Of a stretch of DNA of 64,000 bases, positions 15,888 to 43,266 are shown one piece after another. Each line of letters opens with the position of its first letter. The stretch's first letter is position 1. The stretch covers positions 744,001 through 808,000 of the forward strand of contig BPQB01000002.1 in the NCBI GenBank assembly GCA_019973155.2, given 5' to 3'. Source of the DNA: Phanerochaete sordida (lineage: Eukaryota; Basidiomycota; Agaricomycetes; Polyporales; Phanerochaetaceae). The position numbers and the translations under genes were made by a program. The notes beneath the pieces are model-generated. The model saw only the letters and a list, made by a program, of their open reading frames with translations, was not told the DNA's origin and ran no database searches.

Positions 15888-17406
15888 ATGCCAAATAATA
15901 TTGGCGACCTCAAAGTCTTGCAGGGCTTGTGAGTTCGTCTACAAGAGCGCTGTGCAATATGTTAACTATCACGTTTGGCTAGCAACATAGTAGGGTCCTC
16001 TTTCGCAGGTGAGCGTTATGCACTATATGTACTAGCTGACGCTGAATTCCATCTTTCGAAGCTCTGGTTTTGTATGAACACAGCATCACGCTCGCACAAG
16101 AGGTCGAGACGATCTGGAGAAGAAAGCTTACCGTGCCATCCGTTCTCCTGCTGGCCACCCGATTATCCCTGTTACTATTCGCTGTGACATGCGTAATGTC
16201 TCTCTCAGGGTGCGGTGCAACATGAATGATGCTGTTTACGTCTCAAGCTGAGTCATTCCTTGACGACTTAGGTACCAATGTGTTATCTCGGGAAATATTG
16301 GAGAGATCATAATCGCCGCCGGATACCTGCCAGTGTACTGTAAGTGAGCCTCGTTCGGACTCCGGTACATGCCTTCATTGACCTGACTACAGTGTTCCTG
16401 TCGTTCAGAGTATTCGCACTCTGGACACGCAACTGGACATTGTTCACCGTAGTTTTTGTTCTTGGCCTCACGCCCACTATCACGAACAGTGCGAGTAGTA
16501 TTCAGCCAGTACCATGTGCTCAAGACTAACACCTGCCACCGTTACACAGCAGTTGACTGCAGCGGCCTACACATACACACCATTACTTGGGCCAGTCACA
16601 ACCTGCCTTACTGTTATCAAGCCGTGGGCTGTTTCGGAGCTCAACCGAGGCTATACCATGTATGTTGACTTCCTCAGCAATGTTAAATTTCATAGCTAAG
16701 CTCTGGATAGCGGTGAGCCTCGTTCCTGCAACCAATAGGTGCATCGTCGCTCGTGGCTGACTGTTCACGATGCGCAGGTGATTATTTTACACAGGGAGCG
16801 ATTCTCTGTCAAGACATTCTGGTTCTGTGCTTGACATGGCATGCATCGTACCAGAGCTGGAGGAATGCAAGGAGAGCAAAAATTCAGGTTACGATATCGG
16901 AGTGCATACTGCAGGATGGTATGCCGCTCATGACGTCCTCCAAGCTACTGACCCTAGCTCTTCCGTTACCAGGAACGGTATACTTTGTGTATGGGCTTAT
17001 TCTTTGCCTCGAACCTACGGCTTATAGCCTCTCACAAAGCATCATGTTCGCGATAAATGTCGCGCAAATGGCGATATTTAATGTACGTCCATCCCCGTCA
17101 CGTCGATGAAGCGTTACCGTACATAATTATATATTCTAGGATGAAGTTGGAGAGATGCTTGGAGTATACGTCAACGGAATGGTGAGCATTCGGATCGTTT
17201 GACAGGGACTTTTTCTCTTTTTCTGACTGGCCTGCCAGCCACTTGTCTTAGGGGCCCGGTTCATGATGAACCTTCGTCAGGCCAGTTATTGCAGCAACCT
17301 GCTACCGTACTCGGCCACCGCATCCGTGCATCAAACAAGTATGCTGGGTAATATTGCTGAACCCCTCGAGTTTCATGCTTCGCAGTCCAGTGGAGATAGA
17401 TTTTGA
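15888..17406 (+). CDS. DUF6533-type integral membrane protein, copy a
   Basis: Multi-exon gene of a basidiomycete membrane-protein family of unknown function. Exon 1 (ATG at 15888) codes MPNNIGDLKVLQGF and is followed by a 26-nt exon 2 at 15983-16008. The hallmark is LVLYEHSITLAQEVETIWRR, then a helix LLLATRLSLLLFAVTCV, then SFRVFALWTRNWTLFTVVF. The intron after LTPTITNS starts with GC (16491), while the paralogues use GT at that site. A 2-nt microexon (16711-16712) is needed to keep frame; every other splice I tried gives an immediate stop. Later exons give DYFTQGAILCQDILVLCLTW, RAKIQVTISECILQDG, then GARFMMNLRQ and LGNIAEPLEF. The TGA stop is at 17404-17406. Role unknown. Confidence 0.75.
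16711..16712 (+). other. Predicted 2-nt microexon (CG), DUF6533 copy a
   Basis: The upstream exon ends at 16659 with AT; intron 16660-16710 (51 nt, GTATGT...TAG) is followed by CG and then intron 16713-16777 (65 nt, GTGAGC...CAG, with CTGAC as a likely branch point). Joining AT+C gives Ile, and G+GT gives Gly, entering the frame GDYFTQGAILCQD. No single-intron alternative keeps the frame open. Confidence 0.75.
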
Positions 17407-18417
17407 TTCGAGGTGAGCTAATCCAGCAGTCAATCTTAGTTTGTAGGGGTTGACTGAGTTCCCAGATCATGATTGCAGGAGGGAAACGGGACTTCAGCGT
17501 CAGTGTATCAGTCTGAAGAGGCTTGCGTCGGTGCAGGGCTCGCAGATCCTCCGATTTCTCTCGAGCCCGTCGCCTGTCAAAGTTTATTGCGCTGGTGCTT
17601 GAGCTACCTTTGTCCCCCAGGTCGATGGGTTGCCTCTCAATATTGTTCGTGAGCGCATGCGTGCAATTCCGAACTGGCTAGACTATTCCAGCTATTGCCG
17701 GTTTGCGCATTACCAAAGTCTGGATGGAGATGTCCCGTTACGGTCGCAAAGCGGTAATAAGGTACGTATCGCAGTCGATTGTCGACTGTAATTGCAAATG
17801 ACTAGACCTCTAGGGAATAATGTTCCCAGGTGCGGAGCGTGTACAGATGTAACGAAGCCAAGATCTACTTCAGCAAGGGCGTTCGATTATGCCAAGTAAA
17901 GTGACTAGAGATCCATAGGCATACAATCTTTTCCCACCTCTTCTCACACTTCCCCCGTGAAGCCCGCCCTGTCATCGCGAAGCCCAACGCAATCATCGTC
18001 GGGAGATAGGGCCCAACGCGACTCACGACTGAGAGCGCGGCGGGTGAGCTCCATCCACCTAGACCCTGACACTCCATGCAAACGAGCTGATATCTCACTG
18101 CGCCGGCGTTGCATCTCTGATCATGGCACAGCAATATGTATTGCCCAGCTCCCGCGCGTGCGGTCCGCGACCGGGCGCCCAGGGTAGCGCGCCCGCCGTA
18201 GCGCGTCTCTCGGCGTAATGCAGGCAGGTAGGCATCGACAACGCGGTAACTATGGCAGATCTCGTCCCTGGACGAGCCTAGAAGACACCAGCATGGAAGA
18301 TTTTGGACTTTGTTCTTATTAGGTGCATTTCTTTCAGACCTTATAGGAGGCCCTGGCGGCGGCCTCCCTTCGTGCCACTCCTCGGCTTCGCATTTTCACT
18401 GAGGCACGACGCCGCCC
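17407..18417. other. Intergenic region between DUF6533 copies a and b
   Basis: About 1.0 kb with no gene that I can support. It should hold the terminator of copy a and the promoter of copy b. Confidence 0.4.
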
Positions 18418-20040
18418 ATGTCTTTTGACTACGACAGCGAGCAACTAAGGAGCTTCCAGCTCTCGTACGATCTTTCTTTATGCCACAATTTACCTAATAC
18501 TCACAGTCACTCTAGGAACTATGTAGGATGCTCTTTCGCAGGTCCGGACCAGTGGCTCCCGCTCACACACAGTAGCTGACGATGTGCCACCAAAGCGCTG
18601 ATCATCTACGAGTACAGTATCACCTTCGGGCAAGAAATCGAGACGATCTGGAAACGAAAGGTCACGGTCGCGTCTGGCTTAGTGCTGGTGGCGCGATGGA
18701 TGCTCCTACTGCTCGCTGCGGCGTGCATATTGACCCCGACAGCGTATGTCGCCTCCACCCTATTCTAAATCCCTACTGACCGCATATACCTTCTCTTTAG
18801 CCGCGGCTGTACAGCAGCGGGAAATATAGTACATGTGATGTTCGCCGTGGGTTACCTGCCAGTAAACTGTGAGTCCTCAGCGTACTCGCGAAATGCTGTC
18901 TCTATGCTGATGTGACACCAGTGTTTCTGTCTCTCCGTATTTTTGCGCTCTGGGGGAGGAATTGGACGTTGTTCACGATTGTTTTTGTCCTTGGCCTTGC
19001 GCCCTCCCTCACTAACAGCGTAGGTTTCGCGGAACGTGTACGACTAAACGGTTACTAAATCGGACGGCATACTAACAGCTCGGAGCCGCGGACTTTACAT
19101 TTGCCCCATTCGTCGGACCTGTCTCCGCCTGCCTGGATTTTCTGAAACCCGTTTACGCTGCTAACTTCAACCGAAATTACACTATGTGAGCCCTGACATC
19201 TGTTTGCTGGAGCCGACTCAGCTTCTAACGCTCACGTAGAAGTGCGCTCATTACTGCTTATCTATTCTGCGATAGTTCTGATCTGAACGCGACCGACTAG
19301 GCGATTATACTGCGCAGGGCGCACTGCTTCTGCAGGACCTCACGGTGATCAGCCTGACATGGATCAAGTCATATCGCAGATGGAAGGATGCGCGCCGGGC
19401 CAAGGTCCCCGTCTCAATTCTGGAATGTATTCTACGTGATGGTGAGCCCTCATCGATGTCTGGATTTATTTCTTGACTGATCCTACCTTCGCCCCCAGGC
19501 ACCGTATATTTTGTGTACGCACTACGCATCTCCGTCTGCTCAAAGCTGACTAGTAGCTGGCCATAGGATCATGTTCGCAATCAACATTACGCAGCTTGTC
19601 ATCTTCAACGTAAGTATGTACGATCTAGTCTCGTATGTCAGGCTTTGATCGCGATGCTCCTGAATCCAGGCCGAGAGCGGAGAAGTTCTCGGAGTATATG
19701 TCAACGCCATGGTACGCTTGTCAAATGTCCGACTCCAAGGTCTCCATCTCACTGCGTGGCCCAGCCCCTCGTCCTGGTATCGCGGTTCATGATGAATCTA
19801 CGCCAAGTCGCTGGCCCAGCGGACTCCTTCTCTATCTCAACTGTCGCTTTCCAGGCAAACACAGACATGCTAGGGAATATCGCGGAGCCGATTGAGTTTC
19901 ACGTCACGCAAGCGAGCAGCGTTGGTTCTTCGGAGACACGTTGCAGCGAAGATGGCGAGATCCCCATGTTTACGCTGCGAGAAGGCGGGACGCAGACATA
20001 CGACACAACGGCTCAGCATGGGGGCTCTACCTCGGCATGA
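18418..20040 (+). CDS. DUF6533-type integral membrane protein, copy b
   Basis: Tandem paralogue of copy a. Exon 1 (MSFDYDSEQLRSFQLS) and the 26-nt exon 2 (18516-18541) lead to LIIYEYSITFGQEIETIWKR, the DUF6533 hallmark. Membrane segments follow: VLVARWMLLLLAAACIL, IVHVMFAVGYLPV, then LSLRIFALWGRNWTLFTIVF. A 2-nt microexon lies at 19240-19241. After it come DYTAQGALLLQDLTVISLTW and RAKVPVSILECILRDG. A short intron (donor GTACGC at about 19515) removes stops before IMFAINITQLVIFN. The C-terminus has VSRFMMNLRQVAG, NTDMLGNIAEPIEFH, and a polar tail ending at TGA 20038-20040. Topology fits a multi-pass membrane protein; function unknown. Confidence 0.8.
19240..19241 (+). other. Predicted 2-nt microexon (AA), DUF6533 copy b
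   Basis: The upstream exon ends ...NRNYT+AT at 19185. Intron 19186-19239 (54 nt, GTGAGC...TAG, branch CTAAC) precedes AA; intron 19242-19300 (59 nt, GTGCGC...TAG) follows. AT+A gives Ile and A+GC gives Ser, entering SDYTAQGALLLQD. Reading through instead reaches TAG and the wrong frame. Confidence 0.75.
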
Positions 20041-20703
20041 GGTCGCTATTATAGTGCTTCCTGCATAGTAGCTCATTCAACATACTCATAATTTTGAGCG
20101 CAATGAAGCCTGACCGCCGGCTATCTGGCCTGCCGATTCTGTTGCGAGGCTCGCTCTCGCAACCTGCGAGCTAAACTTAGAGAAGGCCGGCGGGATGTCT
20201 TGTCCCGGTGTCGGAGGGCGCATCAGTGTATCGCTACGGCGCTTGAGGCGTTAGGCGCACACGCAAGCAGCTCTTCTCTCTTCCACCACGATGTATGATG
20301 TCGAGCCACTCTAAAAGAAGCTAAAATAGGTGTGTATTCCCACTCCATTCCACTCAGGTAGTACATAGTTTTAACAAGATGCTGATTATAGCTTTGAGTG
20401 ATCTAAATTGCATGCGCACGACTCGTCTCCGTGGGGCAGTGACACAAAAGGTATATATGTTTACAGTGCGGTCGCTCGTGGGCACAAACTCCTGCCACCT
20501 GTGCTCATTGTATATCACTGCATATCTAAGATAGAAGCTTAGCCCCACTATCAGCATGCGACCTAAGGCAAGCCTGAGACCCATCGAGCTCCGACGTCCC
20601 ACGGATGCGAAAATGCTTCTCACATAAATGCAGCCAGTCATGCGGGCCAGGTCTCGAGGCTCTTCCCTCTCCGATTACCTTCAATTGCGGCGCATTGACG
20701 ACG
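20041..20703. promoter_or_regulatory. Intergenic region before the permease
   Basis: 663 bp with no recognised gene. An in-frame ATG exists at 20605 upstream of the permease start, but its 33-residue extension is Cys/Pro-rich and unlike permease N-termini, so it is treated as leader sequence. Confidence 0.35.
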
Positions 20704-22454
20704 ATGGCTGAAGTCGACAAAGAGGATGGCGGAACGATGCTAGAGGTCGCCGACGCTCTTGGCGCCGCCCAGCAAGCAAGCGCACACGACGAGCGAGACA
20801 TGAAGCGCATGGGCAAGCAGCAAGTGTTCTCGCGCAACTTCCGCATAGCCACCTCCATCGCGTTCACTTCATGTGTCATGGGCACCTGGGAGCTCATCCT
20901 CACGACCTCAACGCCTGCTCTTGTCGCAGGCGGCACCGCTGGCCTCTTCTGGTCGACTATCTGGGGCTATGTCGGACAGGCGTTTATCGTTCTATCCCTG
21001 GCCGAGATGGCTAGCATGGCACCGACGGCGGGCGGGCAGTATCATTGGGCAAGTGCTCGTCAAGCGCGAAGCTGTTTTAAACGCTGACTTTGCATAGGTC
21101 TCGGAGTTTGCACCTCGTCAATATCAAAAGATCCTCAGCTATACTTCGGGCTGGCTCAGCACGCTATCCTGGAACTCTATGTCTGCAGTTCTCTGCTTCG
21201 AATGCGCGCAAATTGCTCAAGCCATGATCGTCTTGAATAACCCAAATTACGTCTCCCAACGATGGCACACGACCCTGCTGACTATCGCGTTCACGTCCCT
21301 GCTAGGTACGCGTCTGCGTCGCTGTTGTCATACTCCTTTCGCTCACAGCCAGTTCAGGCGCATTTAACGTATTCGCCGCCCCATGGCTCGCGACCCTCGA
21401 GGGAATCTTCGCCTTCTTGCACTACCTCATCTTCATCCCCTTCATCGTGGCAATGTGGGTTCTGGCGCCGGAGAAGCAGCCCGCGCACACGGCGCTGCTC
21501 ACGTTCCAGGACAACGGCACGGGCTGGGGCCCCGCCGTCGCGACGCTCGTCGGGCAGGTCACCGCGATGTTCACGCTCGTCGGCTCCGACGCCGCCGCAC
21601 ACATGTCCGAGGAGATCCGCGACGCCGCTGCCGCCGTCCCGCGCGCGATGTGGTGGAGCTTCCTCGCAAACGTCCCGCCTACGCTCGCCGTGCTCGTTAC
21701 ATTCTGCTTCTGCCTCGGCCCCGCTCCCGCCGCGCTCGACAGCGCGACGGGCTTCCCCGTCGTCGATATGTTTGCCCGCATGGCGCGCGGGCCCGCCGGC
21801 GCGACCGGCCTCACATTCGTCACGCTCGTCCTCGTCGCGATCGTCGCCGCGGCGGCGCAGGCGAGCACATCGCGCGCCACGTTTGCGTTCGCACGCGACG
21901 ACGGGCTGCCCTGTGCACGCTTCGTCGGCGGCGTGCACCCGCGCTGGAAGGTCCCCGCGAACGCGATCATTGTCAACGTCGCCTACACGGCTGCGCTCAG
22001 CCTCATCAACATCGGCTCGACGGCCGCATTCGATGCCGTCCTCAGCGTCGGCGTCGTCGCGCTCATGGCGACGTACAGCATCAGCATCGCGTGCGTGCTG
22101 CTCAAGCGTGTCCGCCGCGAGCCCCTCGTACATGCGCGGTGGTCGTTCATCAAGAAAGATGCCGAAGGACGCAGAGGCGACGGGAGCTTTGGGCGGTACG
22201 GCATCTATGTCAACGGCATCGCCCTCGCATACTCGCTCTGGTCGTTCTTCTGGTCTTTTTGGCCTGCGATGAAGCATCCGACGCCGGAGGGTATGAACTG
22301 GGCTGTCGTGATCTTCGGAGCGATCATGATATTTGCTATCTTCAATTATGTTGTCCGTGCACATCGCGTATACGAGGGCCCTGTAGCCAAGGTAGTGGTC
22401 ATAGAACAGGAGAGCGTGGAGACGTTCTCGGAGGGCAATGAAGAGAAGAATTGA
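20704..22454 (+). CDS. APC-superfamily amino-acid/GABA-type permease
   Basis: About 550 residues with some twelve membrane segments, a typical fungal amino acid/choline (GABA-permease-like, UGA4/HNM1 group) transporter of the plasma or vacuolar membrane. After a polar N-terminus comes QQVFSRNFRIATSIAFTSCV. Family motifs include LAEMASMAPTAGGQYHWVSE, SWNSMSAVLCFECAQ, the conserved SDAAAHMSEEIRDAAAAVPR, and RATFAFARDDGLPCA. Exons: 20704-21048, 21098-21305 and 21358-22454. The first intron (21049-21097, 49 nt) is GC-AG (GCAAGT donor) and sits exactly inside the HW/VSE motif, which supports the splice. The substrate cannot be fixed from sequence. Confidence 0.9.
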
Positions 22455-23026
22455 GGCTGGATCAGTCGCATACATGCTGTAATAGCTTACGAGCCATCTG
22501 CAACATTTTGAGTATCATCCTCGTGAGGAACCGAAGGGTCAGGTTGCTGTTCATTGGGGTAAGTGATTCCCAGCGGTGCCTGCCGTCCGCACATGCGCTC
22601 GACGGTGTCCCTGAACGTCTCCTCCCAAGCATCTTCTATCTTCAGGGTCCCCTCGGTATCGGCCTCATACCCAATGTTAGAGTTGGCGAACAGCCAGGGG
22701 ACGTCGAGGCCCATGCACGGCGCACGGATAGCGAACGCGATGACGCCGACTTTGTCGCCTCGGGCAAACAGATCGCGGGCGCTGGCCTGCTTGGAGAGAA
22801 CAAACCCCAAACCTTCGCCCGTGATAGAACCCCAACGCTGTGCCTCCATGACTTCGATGGTATCGACGGTGTGCCGCTGCCAGAGCTTAGCGGAAGAGCG
22901 CAGGCCCGGTACGCGCTTGAGTGTAATGACGACCACGTTTGTCCGCCAAGCGTCTGGGACTTTAGGAAGGTTTAATATGTTGAACGACGCCTGGAACACG
23001 GCGGCCAAAAACTTGTCTTTGAATGC

Positions 23027-23030
23027 GCGG
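23027..23030. repeat. Target-site duplication, left (GCGG)
   Basis: GCGG directly abuts the left end of the foldback element and is repeated directly after its right end. Removing the element plus one copy restores the reading frame seen in the intact paralogue. Confidence 0.75.
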
Positions 23031-24066
23031 CACTGCAGGCATCCGAGGATTTCGTCCCTGCTGAAATGACTCGGAAATCCTGCGCAAAGATGACATGCTG
23101 TACCACTTTCTGAGTCGTGTTAGTAGAACAAAAATGTATCCTTTTGTAGGCCTTTTTGAGCAATGTCGGGCCTGCGGACACGACGCCTGTCGTGTGGGCT
23201 GAAATGATCACGAAATTGCCCTAAAAGGTAGCATGGCGGAGCGCCAGAAATGACTGACGAAGTCATTATTTCCAAGCCCTTTGTGCTGCCTTTCAGCACG
23301 TCTGAAATCCTTTATTTCTGCGGATATGAAAGACAGCCAATCACATGGATCAAAATTGAGATGAAAGGCCTCATTTCCGCCTCATTGTAGACATGCGGAC
23401 ATTGCCCTGAAACGTCGCCTTTTTGAGGCATGTCAGCAGTCTGAAAAGGGCAGCTTTTGGACCAATTGTCGACCCATTTCTGCCACTCTGAAATGAGGCT
23501 GAAATCTCGGTTGCTACCAGGTGCTCCTAGTTGCTCCCGGATGCGCTACAGCGCGCTGAGACGCAACCAGTTGCAACTGGCTGCAACCGAGATTTCAGCC
23601 GCATTTCAGAGTGGCAGAAATGGGCCGGAAATTGCTCCAAAAGCTGCCCTTTGAGGCTTGCTGACATGCCTCAAAAAGGCGGCGTTTCAGGGTAATTTCC
23701 ACATCTCTACAATGAGGCATAAATGAGGCCTTTCATCGCAATTTTGACACATGGGATTGGTTATCTTTTGCCACTCCGGAAATGAGGGATTTCAGATGTG
23801 CTGAAAGGCGCCACAAAGGGTTCGGAAATGATGACTTCGTCAGTCATTTCTGGCGCTCCGCCATGCTACCTTTTAGAGCAATTTCGTGATCATTTCAGCC
23901 CACACGACAGGCGTCGTGTCCGCAGGCCCGACATTGCTCAAAAAGGCTGAAAAAAGGATAGATTTCAGTCCTACCGACATGACTCTGAAATTCCACTGCC
24001 ATGTCATCTTTTCAAGGGATTTCCGAGTCATTTCAGCAGGGACAAAATCCTCTGATGCCTGCAGTG
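23031..24066. mobile_element. Foldback (MITE-like) DNA element
   Basis: 1,036 bp, almost wholly an inverted repeat. The left arm 23031-23514 and right arm 23583-24066 are each 484 nt and closely complementary, around a 68-nt centre. The ends are CACTGCAGGCATC and its complement. No transposase frame is present, so it is non-autonomous. CACTG termini recall the CACTA superfamily, but the duplication appears to be 4 bp (GCGG) rather than the usual 3, so the class is uncertain. The arms are crowded with TGAAATG/CATTTCA words. The element lies in the coding sequence of a MYND-finger gene. Confidence 0.88.
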
Positions 24067-24070
24067 GCGG
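24067..24070. repeat. Target-site duplication, right (GCGG)
   Basis: Second copy of the 4-bp GCGG duplication, directly after the right terminus of the foldback element. Confidence 0.75.
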
Positions 24071-24476
24071 ATTTCCGCGTATATCTGTGTTGGGGCGATG
24101 ATCGAGGAGCGGTCCTTTGCCTGGGCAAAGGCGATTTCGTCGAGACGGGCTTCCTCGCGCAATATCTGCCTCTTCCACAGACATTCGTCCTTATGATCTG
24201 GCCAGTGCTGTTTCTGGCACGCCGCACTCTAAGTGGACGTGATGAATGAAACAGCGAGGATATTTGGTGGATCCGAGACGCACACAATAATTGACCACTT
24301 TGCAGCCCCCGCACAGCATGAGCTTCCTCCCTGCAGCCTCCCTGTCTTTTGCACCTAATGCTTCGTCAGGGATAGATTGCGCAGCATCTCATGCTGGTGC
24401 ACTCACAGGTCTTGCATTTGATGAATATATGGCGCGCTGCTCTAGATTCGATGTTCATCTGCCGGGAGGTCGACAT

Positions 24477-24931
24477 CGCTGGAGTTACCGTGCTCTGGTG
24501 GGATTGAGAAACAGGATTGACGGCGGGGAGACAGCTAGAAAGAACCGGAAAATATGCGTAGGGAGAGATGGAAGTCAATGCAAGTGGAAAGGCAGGGATG
24601 GTGGACGAAAAGCATCCGTGTCAGAGCGCGTCGCGTTGGCGGAAGGTAGTTCCCACGGTTCGTACAGTCTGTCCGCGGCGGCCGCGGCGGAATACTCGAC
24701 GGTGTCGTCACCACAGGACCCCTACCAAGCAAGTATTTCGGCCACAACAGTTCGATACAAATGATAATCATGGTGTAGGAAGACGTGCATATATCAGTCA
24801 AAGATGTACAGCGGCACACGAAACGAAGCAGGAGTATATAGCACGACTAGCGGCAAAGTTGTGGGTACAGAACTCAGCAGGAAAGGAGAGAACGCGAGGG
24901 CATGTCAACGGCGTAAATATGTTGTATGGCC
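24477..24931. other. Intergenic region between MYND paralogues
   Basis: 455 bp. It includes the promoter of the disrupted MYND gene and the 3' flank of its intact paralogue. No gene is recognised. Confidence 0.4.
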
Positions 24932-25880
24932 TCAAAGATTGTCTGAAGAATCTTCAATATTAGAGCCATGAGAATCGGAACCTGCGGGTTGCTCTTCATC
25001 GGGGCAAGTGATCGCAAGGGGAGCCATCCGCCCGCACATGCGCTCGACGGTATCCCTGAACGTCTTCTCCCAGGCATCTTCGATATTGAGGGTCTCCTCA
25101 GAGTCAGCTTCGTAGCCGACGGTGGAGTTGACGTGCAGCCAGGGCACGCTCAAACCCATGCACGGCGTACGTAGGGCATACGCGATGACGCCGACTTTGT
25201 CGCCGCGCAGGAACAGGTCTCGTTCGTACGCCTGCTGTGTTAGATGGTAGTTCATGCCCTCGCCCGTGAGAGTGGCCCAGCGCTGCCGGGTCATGACCTC
25301 GATGGCGTGGATGGTGTAGCGCTGCCACGACTTCGCTGGGGGGCGGGGGTCCCGCACGCGCTTGAGCGTCGTAACGACGATGTTTGCCTGCCACGCGTCC
25401 GGCTTCGCGCGCAGGTTCAGCGCGTTGAAGGTCATCTGAAATATCGCAGCCATGAACTTGATCTTGAACGCGCGCATGTCGGCGTAGATCTGTGTCGGGA
25501 GGACGACCGCAGAGGGGTTCTTTGCGCCGGCCAGGACGATTTCATCGAGGCGCGCCTCCTCGCGCAACACCTCTCTCCGCGCCAAGCAGCTGGCCTTGTG
25601 AGCTGGCCAGTCCTGCTTCTGGCACGCGGTACCCTATGTGGCCGTGAGGAAACATGTAGTGTGGACAGCGGGAGTCGATGCGCACGCAATACGTGGTCCC
25701 CTGGCATCCGGCGCACAAGCTCAGCTTTTTTCCGGCGGCATCTCTATCTTTTGCGCCTGCTGACGCTTTAGAGAGAGCTCTGGGAGACTGACAAAGGGCG
25801 CACTCACAGACCTTGCATTTGATGAATATATGGCGGATGTCCTTCGCCTCAACGTCGATCTTGCGGGACGTCGTCGACAT
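24932..25880 (-). CDS. MYND-type zinc-finger protein, intact copy
   Basis: Start MSTTSRKIDVEAKDIRHIFI, chosen by alignment with the neighbouring copy rather than an in-frame ATG further upstream. The MYND finger is complete after splicing: CKVC (intron inside the second Cys), LCAGC, TYCGTACQKQDWPAHKASC. This domain binds zinc and usually mediates protein-protein contacts. The rest is a conserved region shared with the two paralogues: LREEARLDEIVLAGAKNPSA, FMAAIFQMTFNALNLRAKPD, VGVIAYALRTPCMGLSVPWL, FRDTVERMCGRMAPLAITCP, with an acidic tail. I do not recognise that C-terminal domain. Two introns of about 60 nt lie inside the finger. About 270 residues. Confidence 0.82.
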
Positions 25881-32696: not shown

Positions 32697-33500
32697 CGGC
32701 CCTCGCCCGCGCCCACGAGCGCGACCGCAGGCAGAACGGTCGCGGCGCGCGCGTGGGTCGCCGGTCGCGCTGTGTATTTGTCAGTAGCGGCTGCAATAGC
32801 ATGCGCCTGGCGCTGCGAGTTATTGCGACCCAAATTGCCCGCGTGCTGGGGCTCGGTGTGACGCCCTGTGGGCACTCCGTGCGCGGAGGGTAATTGGCTC
32901 ATGCGTGGGAGTGCCCGATTATCGAGGGAGGTGAGTCTCGATCGCCATAGAGACGCGATCCCGGGGTCCTGCTTCTGGAATGCACGCGTGTGTGCAGCTT
33001 GGTGCTCGGTCGCAGCGTCGGCAGGCGGGGTGGCGCCGCGGCTCTCTGTGTGGCGAGGGCGGGCCCGCCACTGCGCAGGACCGCGAGCGATGGTCGGGCA
33101 GGGTGGAGCAGGGGCAGCTCCGCGGAAGAGGCTACGGGCGCGGCTGAGTCTGTTTGCCGCGGCGGGCGCCTGGCCGAGGCGGCGTGCCTGATCGCGGGCG
33201 CGGGGCCGGGATCTGATGGCCAGGCCCGCGGGCGTGGTGGCGACCATCAGTGTGCCCGGTGTGCCTCTCGGCGACCGCAACGCAGAATGACAAGGTTCAC
33301 CCTCCCCGCCGTATAAAGCCTGCGCGCGCGCATCGTGCCTCTCCATAATTTTCTCCCCTCTCCCTCCTCCCCTCCCCTCCCCCTTCTCTCCTCTCGCCCC
33401 GGGTGCCCCGCACCGCTGGTGTCCGCCGGCCCTTCCTGTCGTTCTTTGGCTCCGACCGCACCTTCATTCGCTTGAGAACCGTGCACACAGTCCTTACAAC
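32697..33500. promoter_or_regulatory. Intergenic region with promoter of the DUF1996-WSC gene
   Basis: 804 bp, GC-rich, without a gene. It contains a CT-rich tract at about 33355-33400 directly before the next gene, a common feature of strong fungal promoters, and a TATA box annotated separately. Confidence 0.4.
33312..33318 (+). promoter_or_regulatory. TATA box of the three-WSC gene
   Basis: TATAAAG about 190 bp upstream of the ATG at 33501 and followed by a CT-rich tract, consistent with transcription starting in or near that tract. Confidence 0.5.
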
Positions 33501-36420
33501 ATGGTCCTGAAAACACTCTCGACCGCCCTTGCGCTCGCGGGCCTCGCGAGCGCGAGCTCCCACATGATCATGGGCGGCCTCAAGCCCATCGTCTACGAGC
33601 GCCTCGACCCCATCGTCAACCCCGGCGCGGTGCGCATCTCTCGCCTGCCCGTGTGTGCAGCGTGTGCTGATGGCAGACGCAGCTCGGCACGCACTTGCAC
33701 GCGTTCATGGGCGCGAACAACGTCGACCGCAGCGCGAACTACGCGCAGAACCGGAACGCCAAGTGCACGTCCGTGCCGTTCCAGGACGTCGACAAGTCGT
33801 CCTACTGGGCGGTGCGTTCCCGTGCGCGCCCCGGGTCAGGCACCCTGCTGACGCGCGCGTGCAGCCGACGATGCAGTACCAGGACCAGCAGACGAAGACG
33901 TTCACGATCATGGAGCCCGTGTTTAACATCTACTACTTCTTCGACCGCAACGGCCCCGGCGAGACCGTGAAGGCCTTCCCCCAGGGCTTGAGGGTGAGTT
34001 TGCGGATCCGTCCTTGTTTTTTTTCTTCCGTTTCGGCGGTCGCCATGACGTCCGTGCGGGCCTGCAGCTCTGCACGATCTGCGGGCTGATGTCGCGTCGG
34101 GAGCGCCGAGTGCTCTGACATGCTTTACGCGTCGTTATCTTTTCCGTCGCGATAGGGCGACGGTTATGGGCGGCGAACTGCCACAACAGAGTGCCCTGGA
34201 CGGATAGCGGACATGGCGGAATACTTCCTTCTGTTCCTGGCGTTTCAGCAGAACCTTGTGTCACAGAGCTGATATTGACCCTGATTCCAGATGGTTGCAG
34301 GAAACCCGATGCGGGATACCTACAACGCTTCCAACTTTGCCGACCAGGCCGTCAGCTTCGTCTGCCTTGACTACAGCGGCACCGTCTCCAACGACCCCGC
34401 GTACGCCGAGCGCAAGGATATCAACTTCCCGAACATCAACGCGTGCAAGGATGGTATCCGTATGCAGGTCTTCTTCCCCCAGTGCTGGGATGGTGTCAAC
34501 CTCGACAGCTCCGACCACAAGTCGCACATGGCCTACCCCGTCGACAACTACAACGGCGGCACTTGCCCTTCGTCGCACCCGGTCCACACCGTCGCCATCT
34601 TCTACGAGCAGATCATCCCCGTCAGCCCGTACAACTACTGGGGTGAGGGCGCCTACGTCCTCTCCACCGGCGACCCGACCGGCCTCGCGTACCACGCCGA
34701 CTTCCTGATGGGCTGGGACCAGAGCGTGCTTCAGGACGCCGTCGACAACTGCCACAACATGAACGGCGACATCACCAAGTGCCAGGTGCTCGTGCCGTAC
34801 ATCAACGAGGACGCCGCCGGCGCCTGCACGATCGACGCCGAGGTCGTGAACGAGGACGTCGGCTTCGGCACGCAGATCCCCGCGCTGCCCGGCTGCAACC
34901 CCGTGCGCACCGACTTCTCGACGGCCGCGTCGTGCCCCGGCCTCGCGGCCCCCGGCTTCATGCAGACCGCCGTCGCGCTCACGCCCGGCTGGACGGACGT
35001 CGGCTGCATCGCCGAGGGCACGAACGGCCGCGCGCTCACCGGCGCGTCGACGACGTCCCCGAACATGACGCTCAACTACTGCGCGGGCTTCTGCGGCAGC
35101 AAGGGCTTCACGTACGCCGGCGTCGAGTTCGGCGACGAGTGCTACTGCGGCAACAACTTCGCGAACGGCGCGACCGGCCAGCCCACGAACTGGTACGAGT
35201 GCACGTCCGACTGCGCTGGCAACCGTGAGTCTCCCTCCTGCGAGCTGGTGCATGCGCATGCTGACGGCCGGCATTAGCTCTCTATGAGAAGTGCGGCGGC
35301 CCCCAGCGCCTTGAGCTCCTGAAGGTCGGCGCCGCGCCCCCCGTCGTGTCCTCGTCGTCCAGCGCCGCGCCCTCTACGTCCGCGAACCCGGCTCCCGTGC
35401 TCTCGTCCTCGGCCGCCTCCGTCCCCACCTCGCAGGTCCTCGCCGCGCCGCCGCCGACCTCGACCAAGGCCGCCGCCACCACGAGCATCGTCACGCCCCC
35501 TGCGCCCTCCTCGCCGGCCGCTGTCTCCTCTGTCGTCTCCTCTGCTGTCGCCTCGGCCGCGCCGTCGTCCACGCCCGCCGCGCCGTCGACCGGCACGTGG
35601 TCCCCCGCGGGCTGCGTCCAGGACGGCCCCGCCCGCGCGCTCACCGGCCACACCTTCACCTCGAGCTCGATGACCATCGAGACCTGCACGGCCACCTGCG
35701 GCCAGCTCGGCTTCACCCTCGCGGGCATCGAGTACGGCCAGGAGTGCCACTGTGAGTGCCGCACTCTGAGCAGCGCGTGGCCGTCCTGCTGACGCGCATT
35801 TTCCGCCAGGCGGCAACTCGTTCGTGAACAACCTCGGCCAGCAGCTCGACGCCGGCCGCGCGTGCTACATGACGTGCAACGGCAACGGCAACGAGAAGTG
35901 CGGCGGCACCTGGACGATGACCGTCCTGCAGCTCAACGGCGCCGCGCCCGCCGCGCCCTCCGCGCCCGCCGCGTCCTCCACGCCCGCGCCCGCGAACAAC
36001 AGCGGCTCGGGCTCCTCGGCCGCGGGCGCCTGGGCCTCCGCCGGCTGCGTGCAGGACGGCGCCGCGCGCGCGCTCACGGGCTACTCGTTCACGTCCGCGT
36101 CGATGACGACCGCGCTGTGCCAGTCGACGTGTGCCTCGAAGGGCTTCTCGCTCGCGGGCATCGAGTACGGCCAGGAGTGCTACTGTGCGTGCCCCCCTTC
36201 CTTCGTATGAACGCGTATCTGACCGCGCCCTGCAGGCGGCAACTCGCTCGTCAATGGCCTCGGCCAGCAGCTCAACGCGGGCCCCGCGTGCTACATGACC
36301 TGCAGCGGCGCGCCCGGCGAGAAGTGCGGCGGCACCTGGACGCTCAGCCTCTACAAGCGCGGCGCCGCGAGCAAGCGCTCGCCCCACTGGGGCCGCCACC
36401 ACGCCCGCTCGCACTTCTAG
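33501..36420 (+). CDS. Secreted DUF1996 protein with three WSC domains
   Basis: Paralogue of the gene at 26786. A signal peptide (MVLKTLSTALALAGLASA) is followed by SSHMIMGGLKPIVYERLDPI, THLHAFMGANNVDRSANYAQ, FNIYYFFDRNGPGETVKAF and IRMQVFFPQCWDGVNLDSS. The first WSC domain (about 34990-35310) ends LYEKCGGPQRLELLK. A long Ser/Ala/Pro linker leads to a second (about 35607-35925, GCVQDGPARALTGHTF to KCGGTWTMTVLQL) and a third (about 36037-36345, GCVQDGAARALTGYSF to KCGGTWTLSLYKR). Each WSC is cut by an intron at the same Cys codon of the Cys-Gly-Asn motif or near its end. The tail KRSPHWGRHHARSHF resembles that of the one-WSC copy. The intron at 33994-34290 is 297 nt against 55 nt in the paralogue. 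TAG at 36418-36420. Confidence 0.9.
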
Positions 36421-36975
36421 GGTGCGCGGGCGCACCCCCACCGCGCCGGTCGAACCGCGTTCCCGGCGCCGCCGAGGCCCGGCCCTCGGCTCCTGATCAT
36501 CGTCGATATCCCCTGCTAAAGCTCTCTCTCTCTCAATCTCGGTCCCGACCTGTTTTCACACCTGTTGTCCGCTCTCGCACCTGTTACCCGCGGCTCGCGC
36601 CCGGCCGCGTCCGCCCCGCTCTCCCTCGCCCCCGCGGCCTCGGAGAGGGCTCGCCCCCGCACGCACGCACGCCCCCACGCCCCTTTCCTGGAGAAAACCG
36701 CCCGGCGTGCCGCGTGCCGCTGTCCCTCGCCGACTGGCCCCGCCGCCCCCGGCCCCCGGCGCGCCGGCTCGTCTCGTCTCTCGGGTTTTGTTTGTTCGGA
36801 AGGGTGGCTGGACGCCGCCCGGTCTCTAGTGTCTCGTCTGCGAAATATAAGAAGGGTTCTCTCGTGCTTCGGCGGGTGTGCAGGCGTGATAGATAGGCTA
36901 CAGCGGATGCTATTGATACACGGTACGTCCCAGACGCGAGTCTAACGCTACAGAAAGATAAATATTCGCCACGGC
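36421..36975. other. Convergent 3' intergenic region
   Basis: 555 bp between the stops of the WSC gene and DUF6533 copy c. CT- and GCAC-rich low-complexity sequence around 36520-36680; no gene. Confidence 0.4.
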
Positions 36976-38646
36976 CTATACCGCGCCCTCATCGTACACC
37001 GCACCCGTGCTCGAGAACCCGATATCGTGCGTGCTGCTCCCGTCGTCCGAGCCGCCACACACCGCGAAGTCGTCCAGCTCGAACCACTCGCGCTGCGCCC
37101 CGGGCTCGCTCCCGAGGTCGAGGCTCGCGCCGATGTTCCCGACGGGCACCGTGAACGCCGCGCTCGTGTAGCCCGAGCCCGGCTGCGCATGCTCTTCGTC
37201 GGCGCCGCGCGCGCCGAGCGTGCGCAGGTTGAGCATGAAGCGGCTCGTGAGGATGAGCGGCTGCCGAGATGTCAGTGCGAGGGGTGGGGTGTGCGGGGCG
37301 AGCGTACCATGATCGAGCAGTAGCCGTAGAGGAGCTCGTTGTGCGATTTCTGCAGGCGAGGCCGGTCAGAGCCCGTGCCGGGAGAGGACGGCAGGGCGCA
37401 CCTCGAAGATGATCATTTGGGTGACGTTGAGTATGAGGAGGATTCTAGCGAGGAGCATCTAATGAGTGGCGATGTCAAGGCTATAACTCCTGGACATACA
37501 CGAAATAGGCCGTCCCTGAATTACCCCATCAGTCTGCGGACGCACTGGCGTGGAGGGCTGGGCGACTCACCGTCACGGAGAAGACACGTAGAGACTGTAA
37601 CGGAGAAGTTGCTCCTCCGTGCCACCTTCCACTGCTGCCAGGTCTTGACCCACGTCAGGACGAGCACAAGGAGGTCTTGGAGGATGAGCGAAGCCCGTGT
37701 CACGTATGCGCCTATGCGCGCTCCCGGTTCAGATGCTAAAGATATGAGGGGTGTAGACTGCAGAGACTCACATCTGTAGAGCAAGTATGAGAATTGTAGC
37801 CCGCAGTGTCGACATGTACCGTACTCACATCGTGTATTTGCGCCGAAAGTCGGGTATGAAGGGAGTCCAGACGCCGCAAACAGGGACTTCAGGAAAGTAT
37901 CTAGGATGGTTGACCGACGCAGCCATCTACAGCTCCCCTCCCATTAGGTCAATGGCAAGAGCGCTCTGACACTTCATACCGAGTTCGTGATGATGGGTGC
38001 TGCCCCCAAAATGAACACGATCACGAAGATCAACGCGTTACGTCCCCAGATGGTCGATATTCTGAGGGCGATGAAGACTTGCTGGATGTGAGAACGACGC
38101 AAGGGAACAGCGCTGTTTGACTTACGGTCTACTGCGACCCAGCCGAGGACTGAAGTGATCTGCTGGATTCTTCCTCTCGCAACGCATCTGCAAGCGATAG
38201 TCAATATTGCGCGCAAGAGCGGAAAGCGTTACGTCCCATACCCCTGCAATGGCGGCCAGTCGATGTCAGCGTCGCGAGCTTCGGCCCAACCTAGATGCTC
38301 ACTCACAAGATCGGAGTACCTGAACGGCTGGAAGAAGCTGCACATGGCAAACAGGAGCATGACCCAGCGGATCATCAACAGCAACATGGTAGTCGCGCTT
38401 TTCTTCCTTCTCCAGATCGTCTCGACCTCTTGAGGAAAGGTGATCGCGTACTCGTAGCCGACTACGACTGGCAGGACACTGCGTCAGCACGCACGACGAA
38501 CACGTCTCAGTCTGTGCAAACGGACCTGACAGAGATAGGCCTGTTATTTCGCTGTCGGATGCACATGCGCCGTCAGCTTCAAGATACCGCAACGGTGATT
38601 TCGACACGTACTAGATAGAGAATGTACTTGGAACGAGCGAGGTCAT
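36976..38646 (-). CDS. DUF6533-type integral membrane protein, copy c
   Basis: Exon 1 (ATG at 38646) reads MTSLVPSTFSIY and joins a 26-nt exon 2 (38526-38551) to give EITGLSLSVVVGYEYAITFP, then QEVETIWRRKKSATTMLLL, the family hallmark. The helix IRWVMLLFAMCSFFQPF follows. The exon ending DFRRKYT is followed by a 2-nt microexon (37772-37773), then CAYVTRASLILQDLLVLVLT and RRSNFSVTVSTCLLRDG. The C-terminus has MLNLRTLGARGADEEHAQPG, VGNIGASLDLG and IGFSSTGAVYDEG, very like copy d. The start chosen gives the same exon-2 length and phase as the paralogues; an ATG at 38695 in another frame would not. Middle exons were only partly traced. Function unknown. Confidence 0.72.
37772..37773 (-). other. 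Predicted 2-nt microexon (AT), DUF6533 copy c
   Basis: The upstream exon ends at 37829 with ...FRRKYT+AT. Intron 37774-37828 (55 nt, GTGAGT...CAG) precedes AT; intron 37712-37771 (60 nt, GTGAGT...TAG) follows. AT+A gives Ile and T+GC gives Cys, entering CAYVTRASLILQD. Retaining the second intron also stays open here, so this copy alone does not prove the microexon. Confidence 0.65.
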
Positions 38647-39251
38647 CGTTGCTGAGCCTACGCACGGCGAGGCGGATAAAGCGAGACCAGCACATTGCGC
38701 ACGAGATTATGTATATGATAGGAATTTGCAGTGTCGGGTAGCCTGTAATCTCGTAAAATGAGTACAAGGTCTCTTACGAGGTACCATCAAAGCCTATGTA
38801 AGCCCGCCCGAAGGGTCAAAGACAAGGCTTACCGAGTTCGTTGAGGCTCGTTACCAAGGTAGCCGCGTTTCACCTGCGATTGTGCAGTAAGGCAGAGGTC
38901 TACAAAGGTCATAAAATACTGGCTTGCGCAGGCATGCAGCTTCGGACGCGCCGGATTGGTATTGTCGACGGCGACCCGACATGGGGAGCCCGGTTGTCCT
39001 CTGAACGTCGCGACATGAAGGATGGATGTGACGAATCCATACGTGCCAGGTCTGAAGTCAAGCAAAAGGCTCACGGTTGACGCGACGAATCTTCGGCGGC
39101 GCAGTCGGAACACGCTAAAAGCGTAGTGTTGAAGTACAACGAGGAAGGGGTATCGAGGGTCCGGCCTTGCAAGCCAGACAAAATGGAGACCCCGGATACC
39201 TAAGAGCGTCTCGAGCAAATGAGCACCGCAAGTCAATCCTATCATTGCGCC

Positions 39252-40967
39252 TCACGAACTAGGCCCGGGCTCGTTACCGTACTCGTATACAGCACCTGTA
39301 CTCGAGAATCCGATATCTATGGTACGGGACCTATCTGGATCGGGTGCAAAATCCTCCAACTCGTACCATTCCCGCGGAACGTCGCGCTCCAGCTCGTCGC
39401 CGAGGTCGAGGTACTGGCCGATATTCCCAAGGGTATAGCTGGCGTTGGGATTAAATACCACTGTTGAGTAGTTGGTCCAAGGCTGTGCTTCTGTGTCCCA
39501 GTCGGCACGGTTCCCAAGTTGACGCAGGTTCATCATGAAGCGGCTCGCGAGAATGAGAGGCTGCGAAGAGTCATCACGTATTCAGAACTGTCTGTCACCA
39601 GAAATCGCGCGACCTACGACGTACAATTGCCTGCAGAAATTGGGTCAAGAGCGCATGCTGCGACTTCAGGGACCCGTGAGTCTAGAGCTACGGTAGAGTC
39701 ATTTCGGAGGCGCACGCACATTGAATACGGCTATCTGAGCGACATTGAGAGCGAAAAGGACGCTAGAGGGTCGAGGGTGAGCCCATGTACAGCATGCGCT
39801 TAATGCCTCTTACAAGAAGTATCCGGTTCCTGTATCAAGCCTGTAATGAGTAAAGTAAAGGAGAGGCTCCGAGACGAAGTACTTCACCGTCTCTGAGTAG
39901 ATATGTCGATAATGAGATAGAAAAGTCAGTTCTCCGCGCAATTTTCCATTGTTGTAGCGTCTTCACCCATGTGAGAACCAGCACGATGGCATCTTGTAGT
40001 ATGAGTGTACTTCTCGTGACATAGGTACCTGTCACACACAGACGGATAAGATCATTACAATTTCATCACAGCCAATGCGAGATGCATACATACTTCTAGC
40101 TCAGTGTGTAAGCGGACATAAAATGTGTACGCTGACCTGGAGGTAAACTCACATTTTCCAGCTACGCTCAAAGTTTGACGGTGGTATAGCGATCCTGAGC
40201 TTGTAAAAGCATCCGGGAAGGTGGGGCGAATATGCAGGGAGTGATATCGAGGCTGATATCTGGTATCTAGGTTCACACTGGCGTACCGCAGACTAGAACA
40301 GCTGCTTACCGTATTTGTGATGACAGGCGCAAGACCCAGAACGAATATTGCAGCAAATAAGAGCCGGTTATGTCCCCAGATCGCGGACAGGCGAAAGGCG
40401 ATGAAAACTAGGTAGCTTTCAGCACATGCGAGGGACCATATTTAGGTGACTCACAATCAATTTCAGCCCAACAGATGATTCTGACGATGGTCAGAATCCA
40501 TATTCTGATATTGCACCTAGGAGACTGGTCACTAAGGCCGCAGAAACGTCGCGGTGGGCAACATACCCCTAAGCGAGCACAATATCAGCATCGCTTCCTA
40601 CATATCCGTGAAGCAAGAACTTACGACGAGCGACTTCTGAATAGGCTGCAAGAAGCTGCACACGCCCAAGAGAACCATGGTCCACCGAATGAGCAGAAGC
40701 AGGAGCGACGTAGCATTCCACTTCCTTCTCCAGACAGTCTCAAACTCTTGTGGGAGGGTGAGAGCGTACTCGTAGAGTAATAGCACTGGTAAAAGTCAAA
40801 GGTCAGAGAAGGCCTCGGCGCATCGAAGGTAGCCAGGTAATCAGACAGCGCGCACCTCCGGTAGCGATGGAGCAAACTCCGCTAGCAACCGAGCCCTGTC
40901 AGTATGATACCAGCGGGCTAGGAAGGTATGCACTTTATATATACCCCCTCGTAGAGCGAGATGTCAT
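39252..40967 (-). CDS. DUF6533-type integral membrane protein, copy d
   Basis: A short exon 1 (MTSRSTRG, ATG at 40967) and a 26-nt exon 2 (40856-40881) lead to VLLLYEYALTLPQEFETVWR and RKWNATSLLLLLIRWTMVLL. An ATG at 40986 in another frame would need a 40-nt exon 2, so 40967 is preferred. The exon ending NFERSWK is followed by the 2-nt microexon at 40094-40095, then STYVTRSTLILQDAIVLVLT and ARRTDFSISLSTYLLRDG. The C-terminus reads MMNLRQLGNRADWDTEAQPW, LGNIGQYLDLGDELE, then IGFSSTGAVYEYGNE, closely matching copy c. Copies c and d therefore look like a recent pair. Some middle exons were not traced in full. Confidence 0.72.
40094..40095 (-). other. Predicted 2-nt microexon (AA), DUF6533 copy d
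   Basis: The upstream exon ends at 40153 with AT. Intron 40096-40152 (57 nt, GTGAGT...TAG) precedes AA; intron 40029-40093 (65 nt, GTATGT...CAG) follows. AT+A gives Ile, A+GT gives Ser, entering STYVTRSTLILQD. The only longer exon that keeps frame would require a 16-nt intron. Confidence 0.75.
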
Positions 40968-41648
40968 GCACAACAGTGCTAGGCATGCGAGTCGAGGGCT
41001 ATGGAGCTACTAGACATAGGGCCAGAGATGGACTCGGTCTCTCCGGAACTCTCATATATGCAAGTATTAATCCGGCTAACCAGCCAAAACATGCTGCAGA
41101 AGAACAACGGCCGCAGTATAGCACATGGGGATCGGAGAAGGATGCTTGCCTAGAACAACAGCTACCCGTTTTGTCGTGGAGGTAGCGGCTGCAATGATCA
41201 AGATAGTGAGCGTGACGAGTCGTGCGGCGGCGTGAACTCTGGACACGCGCAGTGCTTCGGGCATCTTCAATGAACCTTAGCAGTCGCCAAACAGCGTGAT
41301 AGTCAACGAAGTGGGGCCGCCTCGAGACCGGGGCCGCTCCACACAACTCTATCACGGTGGTCATATGGGCTATGCGGAGGCGAGACGACATACGCACTGA
41401 CAACAACTGCCCAGTTGAGCAACATGTGTGAGAAATAAACAAAGAAATTACGCACGTGCATCCACTAGCGTCGGGCGAGAGCCGGTATATCAGCCACGGA
41501 TGGCAGACCGCCACGGAGACGACAGAAGCCCGCGGACTCCGTACCACGATGCAGTCAGGGTGGTGCTCAGCAAGCCCAGTTTTCATAGCTTACGACCGCT
41601 CTACATTTACGAGAAAGAATGAGATTGCGCACCAGTCTGCCCCGGCCC
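40968..41648. other. Intergenic region between DUF6533 copies d and e
   Basis: About 0.7 kb holding the promoter of copy d and the 3' flank of copy e. Open frames here (for example minus 40999-41586) show no domain. Confidence 0.35.
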
Positions 41649-43266
41649 TCATTCCTCATCGACTCGATCCTCAGCGACCGGACGGCCGACAGACGTAGTG
41701 TTCAACAGATTGAGCGACCGCTGGACCTCTCGCGCCGATCGATGAAAATACGTCTGTCGCTGTCCCGCGCCGGGATCGCTCAGGTCGCTAGGCCCTTGGA
41801 GCATCGCCCGTAGTTCCATGATCAGGCGGCTGGTCAGGATTAGCGGCTGGCGCGAAACATCAATGCCCGCCAGTCGCCAGATATAGGCGCAGTGCATTAC
41901 GCACCATAGCAGCAAGCAGCGGCGCCATCACCATCTCCATTATGCCGTCAGGCTGTCGAAAGTGTGTCAGAATGAGACCGTCTTCGCAGTTCGCAGGACT
42001 CACTTTGACGATGCACATTTGTGCGATGAGGAGAGACATCAGGATCCTGGTTCATACGGCGGTAAGGCGGGTACGGTCGCTAATAAACGGTGTATCGCAC
42101 GTACAGGAAGTGGATAGTGCCTGAGAAAACGGCGTCAGCGGACGCGACGAGAAAGGGTTTAACGGAGAGCGCACCGCCGCGAAGTATCGATGCACTCATA
42201 GAAACTGTCATTTTGAGCTTTCGCGCTTCCCACCATTGCCCGAAAGTCTTCGCTAGCGTCAGACCAATGACAAGAATGTCTTGAGCAAGCAGCACGGCAC
42301 AGGTAGTCTGAGCGGCTTGAAGATTGCTGAAGGTCAGTCCGTAGAACATGTCTGGAAGAGGGTCTGACATACAGCTGCAGGCAAGACATCAGCTAGCCGT
42401 TACCGCGGGGGATGGGTGAGTCTTACATCATGTAGCTGCGAATTGATTGAGGTGTCGTCGACACGGGGTGCCCGTAGCATCGGAATTGGAGCGAGTAGGC
42501 GTTGCGGTAATCCGCTCCTTCGAGCTGAAACGTGGTCAAAAATTTCGATTCTTGTCAGGACCGATTGTCACCGTGAGAAGGTAGCGTACGATGTCAGTCA
42601 AGACGGGGGTCATCCCCAAGATGAAGCTTATGGCGAAAAGGGTTTTGTTGCCGCCCCATATGGCCGAAGTCTTGAGAGCCGTGTACACTGCGCGGTTGTC
42701 ATATAAACGCATGAACCATACCGGGAAATTTATGAAACTGCACCGTTGAGCAAGATGTAGCCAATCGACTCGACCACGCCGCATATCCACCATGCTGCGG
42801 TACAGCTTGCACACGGCCTGTCAGTCCACTGTCAGAGCTTCAGGGATCAAATCTGACCTCTGGGAAATTGGTTAGTCCGAAGCACGGTAGAGGTTAGCAA
42901 TGTGCTTACCTCAGGCGTTGGTCGGATGGCAAGCAAGAGATATCCGACTGCTCCAAAGAGCAGCGTCCAACGAATAACGAGGAGCACTAACGAAAGAGCC
43001 GTTGGTTTTCGCTTCCAAACGGTCTCTACTTCCATTGGGAAGGTAACGATGTACTCGTATACGGACAAAGCTTCCGGGAGATAGCGTATAAGTCATAATA
43101 ATCAAGATGAACTGGCTCACTACTACTCACCCGCGACGGAAAACATCATTCGCGTGCTGGGAAGGGGAGAGCCGACAAGGTCAGCCGACGAGCCTGGCCT
43201 AGAAGTACTGGAGGTATACTTTAGCTCTTCGTGCTGTAGTGCCGAGATCCAGTCAAAATTTGCCAT
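41649..43266 (-). CDS. DUF6533-type integral membrane protein, copy e
   Basis: Exon 1 (ATG at 43266) codes MANFDWISALQHEELK. A 26-nt exon 2 (43131-43156) supplies NTRMMFSVA, then LSVYEYIVTFPMEVETVWKR and LVLLVIRWTLLFGAVGYLLL. Further exons give CASCTAAWWICGVVESIGYI, YTALKTSAIWGGNKTLFAIS and FILGMTPVLTDIVRYLLTV. A 2-nt microexon (42373-42374) links SIRSYM+Ile to SAQTTCAVLLAQDILVIGLT. The C-terminal exon has LILTSRLIMELRAML where the others have FMMNLRQ, and its end is different and Arg-rich. Copy e is the most diverged of the right-hand three. It is divergent from BUB3, with 418 bp between start codons. Confidence 0.75.
42373..42374 (-). other. Predicted 2-nt microexon (CT), DUF6533 copy e
   Basis: The upstream exon ends at 42427 with AT. 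Intron 42375-42426 (52 nt, GTAAGA...CAG) precedes CT; intron 42316-42372 (57 nt, GTATGT...AAG, branch ACTGACC) follows. AT+C gives Ile and T+CC gives Ser, entering SAQTTCAVLLAQD. The second acceptor is AAG, weaker than CAG, and reading through also stays open, so this copy is supporting rather than decisive. Confidence 0.6.

Follow-up and report, generated by a model that had tools for sequence, protein, structure and literature searches.

Here we show that a 64,000-nucleotide (nt) stretch of the genome of Phanerochaete sordida (C2:744001-808000; hereafter the window) carries five paralogous genes of the DUF6533 (PF20151) family, copies a to e, each of which is laid out at one position (site B) as an intron, an exon of two nucleotides and a second intron. 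Three of them repeat the layout at a second position, site A, 470-485 nt upstream in the window. This DNA structure, the requirement of the reading frame for the two bases, their conservation among paralogues and the agreement in register of homologous intron-free open reading frames (ORFs) are observed directly. Taken together, they make it very likely that two 2-nt coding exons, A and B, are widespread fixtures of this Snowball-type, seven-helix family. A previous examination of the window by its letters alone (the sequence-only reading) had proposed a conserved 2-nt coding exon at site B, an interpretation that is supported by frame, splice sites, branch motifs, dozens of paralogues and intron-free ORFs alike. 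The pattern it described in five copies is real, but it is part of a far larger one, and the second 2-nt exon upstream in copies c, d and e had been missed.

The survey covered the whole P. sordida genome (40.8 Mb in 222 contigs). A PF20151 profile search gave 150 scored hits among 203 candidates, with copies a-d among the scored hits and copy e not among the matches listed, and a search with the exon downstream of site B gave 128 hits. The conceptual product of copy c belongs to DUF6533, scoring 35.2 bits against a curated Pfam cut-off of 24.1. We retrieved 108 loci and three short pieces (L109-L111), while forty PF20151 hits were not retrieved whole; DNA of other fungi was also sought in viral contigs, where no relative was found. 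Pattern counts refer to 80 distinct loci, the five window copies included, that have the downstream exon at a score of at least 15. Hits scoring below 15 were left out, as were two duplicates, L001 (window copy d) and L055 (the place of L002). L109-L111 belong to this set and not to the set of 77 loci used for spliced alignment.

In 69 of the 80 loci the string YAG-N2-GTNNG stands 45-95 nt before the acceptor of the downstream exon, whereas each of the other 30 spacings between 0 and 30 nt occurs in only 0-14 of the 80; the value of 14 belongs to spacing 6 and is probably GTNNGTNNG read twice. Nine of the remaining 11 loci were found by reading to have the same layout with a weaker site: a non-YAG acceptor in five (AAG or GAG in L002, L072, L078, L081 and L100), a GC donor after the micro-exon in two (L034 and L058) and no G at +5 in two. 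L054 (C16:531478-534091) and L110 (C2:615490-615860) are without the layout; the sequence upstream of their downstream exon is unlike that of the family, and they are possible insertions or dead genes. When the gene region was scanned in bins, spacing 2 was prominent in two of them, from -100 to -40 (68/80) and from -600 to -500 (35/76), and it was this second bin that pointed to the new site A; in the other bins spacing 2 reached at most five loci, and no other spacing exceeded 14 in any bin. Read in the phase that the micro-exon requires, the upstream exon stays open across 20 codons in 66 of the 69 loci, compared with 44 and 34 in the other two phases, under a crude choice of donor.

These features were recovered by two programs that take no account of micro-exons. 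In 72 of 78 anchored loci an exhaustive splice dynamic programme (DP), which knows only matrices from 28 other introns, intron lengths and the open frame and has no coding term, chose two nucleotides as the exon preceding the downstream one. A spliced protein-to-DNA aligner without any micro-exon prior was seeded with the ORF P0001 from the database, and its alignments were iterated into a profile. Of 77 loci, it gave 63 a 2-nt exon at site B (54 of them on the exact template column, with phases 2 then 1) and 39 one at site A (35 on the exact column, with phases 0 then 2), and 33 received both. Any other template column received an exon of 12 nt or less in at most 5 of the 77 loci. With the aligner, forbidding exons shorter than 9 nt costs a median of 27.2 bits, and more than 10 bits in 71 of 77 loci; deleting the two nucleotides costs more than 5 bits in 62 of 65 carriers; and once the interior of the double intron has been shuffled a 2-nt exon is still chosen in 6 of 65. 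The number of site-B carriers is 63 in the first aligner pass and 65 in these bit-cost tests, the profile having been rebuilt once between them. In all five window copies the aligner and direct extraction re-derived the intron, 2-nt exon and intron at the positions first given for them (Table 1), and bore out the intron lengths of 51-57 nt (B1) and 57-65 nt (B2). That coincidence is an unlikely source of the pattern, as had been argued from five copies, holds at the scale of the family, and a chance AG-N2-GT was rejected on the spacing counts, the binned scan and the shuffles.

Each half of the double intron looks like a full intron, since the branch motif CTRAY is found well above the shuffled expectation of 5-8 in all of them (24/39 in A1, 19/39 in A2, 39/63 in B1 and 32/63 in B2); three other family introns have it in 33-38 of 69-74 loci. 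By and large, the splice sites resemble those in the rest of the family's introns, with A2 acceptors slightly weaker (YAG in 31/39). The elements have what defines a micro-exon: they are very short, and the intron on either side brings a 5' site, a branch motif and an AG of its own. Their two bases are needed for the reading frame of the conserved protein. Origin of the pairs by tandem duplication of one intron was considered and rejected, the likeness within pairs being barely above random (2.10 vs 1.13 at A and 2.74 vs 1.44 at B, with a standard deviation of about 4).

The identity of the two bases points to the protein as the constraint. In a fungus, G has been given as the last exon base before the 5' site in about 80% of cases (PMC12940212). 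The second base of the site-B micro-exon is G in 1 of 63 loci, hence the dinucleotide was not apparently chosen to serve the splice site, and the codon that it begins encodes Leu, Phe or Met in 49 of 63. The sequence-only reading had noted that in the five window copies the first base always completes an Ile codon, which is true of them and fails as a family rule (Ile in 30/63 loci); even in the five copies it is weak evidence by itself, because with AT fixed three of the four bases give Ile.

Intron-free homologues provide the yardstick for the frame. P0001 (350 aa) shares 50% identity with copy c across 98% of the latter and reads EVGCSIRIW at site A and DYTICAYVTRSTLILQD at site B. Both sites were already on record when this ORF and the others were obtained. 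With the spliced product of L003 as query (from the aligner, site B having been recorded earlier) we obtained P0004, 340 aa on a 1277-nt contig and 77% identical to spliced L003, with the same Lys-Leu at B and Thr-Cys at A, and P0005, 331 aa on a 1170-nt contig and 59% identical, with the same Lys-Leu at B. P0001, P0004 and P0005 are gap-free at both sites. A further ORF, P0010 (353 aa, 1903-nt contig), reads by eye LNTIMLYLTRG at B and SSTCERY at A, and the splice of L080 gives LNTIMLYFTRC. All four ORFs are contiguous, against 7-14 introns across the aligned region in the genes modelled here. The source label 'lgn' of P0001, P0004, P0005 and P0010 probably denotes assemblies of sequencing runs, perhaps of RNA.

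Site A occurs in several states within the one genome. No intron is present in L052 and L069, and only the first in L107, L074 and L104, and there the residue sits in a normal exon; a separate group, to which window copies a and b belong, has one shifted phase-2 intron. Such mixed intron states, alongside intron-free ORFs, are the pattern that would be expected of a true coding dinucleotide. Among 35 more divergent DUF6533 loci site A was placed in 18 and site B in five, counts that are softened by spurious small exons in low-scoring alignments. In a tree of 108 loci, drawn without L014, L029, L030 and L032, at least one micro-exon is found in 88 and both in 38, with one 'site B' (L079) that looks spurious, and neither is found in the branch around L006, L018, L022 and L038. 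The members of that branch, like L057, L070 and L065, are divergent DUF6533 genes with other intron layouts. Dating of the sites by rooting was tried and given up: the midpoint-rooted tree has both sites on either side of its deepest split, its root is untested and support is low in places, and no date is claimed.

The predicted structure of P0004 has a seven-helix arrangement, with one helix split and a hairpin in the second outer loop. Among solved structures, the folds closest to it are those of G-protein-coupled receptors, with Ste2 ranking first by VIA-align and 40th by Foldseek E-value, and the predicted fold is a seven-helix one of that kind. In this protein site A encodes residue 86 and site B residues 170-171. 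An alignment of nine shows no variation at Cys87 and Cys157, and both are absent from the 90% columns of a 20-sequence alignment that holds broken models. The Coprinopsis DUF6533 protein Snowball is reported to be required for fruiting-body patterning, and snb1 is alike in its Pfam domain and predicted seven-helix layout (PMC10949477).

According to the model that we favour, each micro-exon is set between a pair of short introns of ordinary kind (43-67 nt among the modelled genes), both of which have a 5' site, a branch motif and an AG. The dinucleotide at site B completes one codon and opens the following one, close to where helix 5 begins, and that at site A forms the first two bases of the codon preceding the conserved Cys at the start of helix 3, so that skipping of either micro-exon shifts the frame. 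The prevailing view is that splicing of short fungal introns follows intron definition. The spliceosome most likely takes out the two introns successively in this way, because two nucleotides leave no room for the simultaneous occupation of both splice sites; intron definition with successive removal has been proposed for a 1-nt exon (PMC4674806). The sequence in which the introns are removed, the inclusion of the micro-exons in P. sordida mRNA, their constitutive use and a common ancestry of each site are likewise inferred.

Published gene models are affected in the manner that the sequence-only reading had foreseen, when it held that predictors would break these genes. P. sordida genes were called with BRAKER2 and manual curation (PMC8530024), and all four P. 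sordida models returned by our searches are truncated or altered at the sites. PsYK624_052390 matches the end of L003 exactly and begins past site B; in PsYK624_154550, the model of L069 (a locus that lacks an intron at A), intron B1 is retained and adds 19 residues; PsYK624_169310 begins downstream of site A and lacks three residues at B relative to L003, its own DNA not having been compared; and PsYK624_011430 (L020) is out of frame at site A. Judged by eye from the proteins only, models of Irpex rosettiformis have inserts and gaps at B, and those of P. carnosa, Cytidiella, Daedaleopsis and Fomes appear to keep the register at that site.

One rival account is that the two bases are absent from the mRNA, being removed with one longer intron of about 110-125 nt or within a nested stwintron. 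Stwintrons do occur in fungi, and at site A the aligner chose a single intron of 103-111 nt in L063, L081 and L087. However, phases 2 and 1 at B, and 0 and 2 at A, fail to join unless 2 nt (mod 3) stand between them, which sets these elements apart from stwintrons; paths without tiny exons incur the median loss of 27.2 bits; and the residues of the intron-free ORFs stand where the two bases place them. We consider removal of the bases extremely improbable. Habitual retention of one intron, with the dinucleotide as the edge of an ordinary exon, would agree with PsYK624_154550 and with copies c and e, in which a retained B2 is a multiple of three and open, as had been noted before; but the same retention brings a stop in copies a, b and d, P0001, P0004, P0005 and P0010 carry no such insert, and both introns have branch motifs about as often as other introns do, which leaves it with very little probability. 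Finally, the micro-exon may be real and serve as a switch, its skipping or retention leading to frame shift, premature stop and silencing of single family genes. Breakage of the frame by skipping at either site and the weaker splice site in 9/80 site-B loci would fit with this. Yet no regulated isoform has been seen, the splice sites resemble those of other family introns, and constitutive inclusion is the simpler account; we regard the switch as unlikely.

Several points nevertheless weigh against constitutive 2-nt coding exons. Inclusion in P. sordida mRNA is predicted from DNA and from intron-free ORFs of other sources, and the 'lgn' contigs are of unstated origin, so that P0001, P0004, P0005 and P0010 could be intron-free genomic copies. 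Since P0001 seeded the aligner, the aligner counts are not independent of it, nor are paralogues from one genome independent of each other. In 14 of 77 loci site B is either missed by the aligner or put in the wrong place; 12 of these have the strict pattern, L034 has the pattern with a GC donor and L054 is without it. Some DP paths hold other doubtful tiny exons upstream, some anchors are weak (scores from 0.3), and deletion of the two bases costs 5 bits or less in 3 of 65 carriers, the lowest value being -0.7. No paralogue was found in which site B has one intron only, which confines the intron-loss comparison to site A.

The features of the five window copies are collected in Table 1. Two further observations concern the same genes: a constant exon of 16 nt lies at the same place in all five (16973-16988, 19499-19514, 37515-37500, 39829-39814 and 42120-42105), and the intron after the ITNS exon of copy a (16491-16552) appears to use a GC 5' site.

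Table 1. Introns and putative 2-nt exons at sites A and B in the five DUF6533 copies (positions in the window).
Feature	Position	Strand	Details
Copy a intron B1	16660..16710	+	51 nt, GTATGT..ATAG, phase 2
Copy a site-B micro-exon CG	16711..16712	+	ATC-GGT, Ile-Gly
Copy a intron B2	16713..16777	+	65 nt, phase 1
Copy a site A, one phase-2 intron, no micro-exon	16210..16271	+	then Gly-Tyr-Gln-Cys
Copy b intron B1	19186..19239	+	54 nt
Copy b site-B micro-exon AA	19240..19241	+	ATA-AGC, Ile-Ser
Copy b intron B2	19242..19300	+	59 nt
Copy b site A, one phase-2 intron, no micro-exon	18744..18800	+	Ala-Arg-Gly-Cys
Copy c coding stretch, DUF6533 exon to stop	36976..38467	-	319-residue single open frame with both micro-exons; N-terminal start not settled
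Copy c intron B1	37774..37828	-	55 nt
Copy c site-B micro-exon AT	37772..37773	-	ATA-TGC, Ile-Cys
Copy c intron B2	37712..37771	-	60 nt; open when retained
Copy c site-A micro-exon GG	38242..38243	-	introns 63 and 54 nt; first two bases of Gly codon before conserved Cys
Copy d intron B1	40096..40152	-	57 nt
Copy d site-B micro-exon AA	40094..40095	-	ATA-AGT, Ile-Ser
Copy d intron B2	40029..40093	-	65 nt
Copy d site-A micro-exon GG	40567..40568	-	introns 56 and 50 nt; Gly-Cys
Copy e intron B1	42375..42426	-	52 nt
Copy e site-B micro-exon CT	42373..42374	-	ATC-TCC, Ile-Ser
Copy e intron B2	42316..42372	-	57 nt; open when retained
Copy e site-A micro-exon AG	42858..42859	-	introns 50 and 52 nt; Ser-Cys

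Ultra-short exons are known from other systems, and the suggestion that 2 nt is at or near the lower limit for any gene needs a qualifier, since 1-nt exons have been published for plants and Fusarium (PMC4674806, PMC8831610, PMC12940212) and exons of 2-5 bp are cited for Arabidopsis, Drosophila and humans (PMC12940212). A close parallel is the 1-nt exon of the Fusarium CYP621A P450, which is likewise fungal, was found through a frame mismatch between conserved exons, appears as AG-N-GT within an intron of double length, had an intron-free relative as yardstick and was wrong in gene models (PMC12940212). It differs in that a single nucleotide at one site in orthologues of one gene is concerned, with confirmation by SRA reads, whereas in P. 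sordida there are 2 nt at two sites in dozens of paralogues of one genome, as read from the DNA. The plant APC11 and VPS55 exons are also ultra-short, conserved and missed by annotation, with some copies intron-free, but they are of 1 nt, lie in low-copy genes and were established by RT-PCR and reads (PMC4674806, PMC8831610). Within the same genus, the P450 genes of P. chrysosporium combine short introns with small exons across a large family, although the shortest exon reported there is 6 bp (PMC1184071). The [D1,2] stwintrons resemble our sites in having two fungal introns at one place that are removed in succession; they differ in having no exonic base between the introns, where the P. sordida frame needs 2 nt. 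Among the matches listed in the accessible open-licence PubMed Central (PMC) literature, DUF6533 is treated in PMC10949477 and mentioned in passing in PMC8955403, and in the titles and abstract openings listed there we found no 2-nt exon in a fungus, no micro-exon in DUF6533 genes and no family-wide, two-site case of ultra-short exons.

If our interpretation is correct, the annotation of P. sordida is wrong for a large family to which a fruiting-body gene is related, and the same applies apparently to Irpex and maybe elsewhere. This raises a broader idea, to which we attach only a small likelihood: that two separate 2-nt exons have persisted for much of the time in which a receptor-like family diversified, with some ninety or more genes of one fungal genome splicing them and about two in five of these having both, and that ultra-short exons are routine in Agaricomycetes and may act as frame switches that determine which of the family's receptors is produced. 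The set described here would, if true, be denser than the literature cases that we found, offering natural replicates by the tens at its two sites and, within one genome, site A in its two-intron, one-intron and intron-free forms. The handling of such exons by the spliceosome, and their gain and loss, would thus become testable by read counts in a single culturable fungus.

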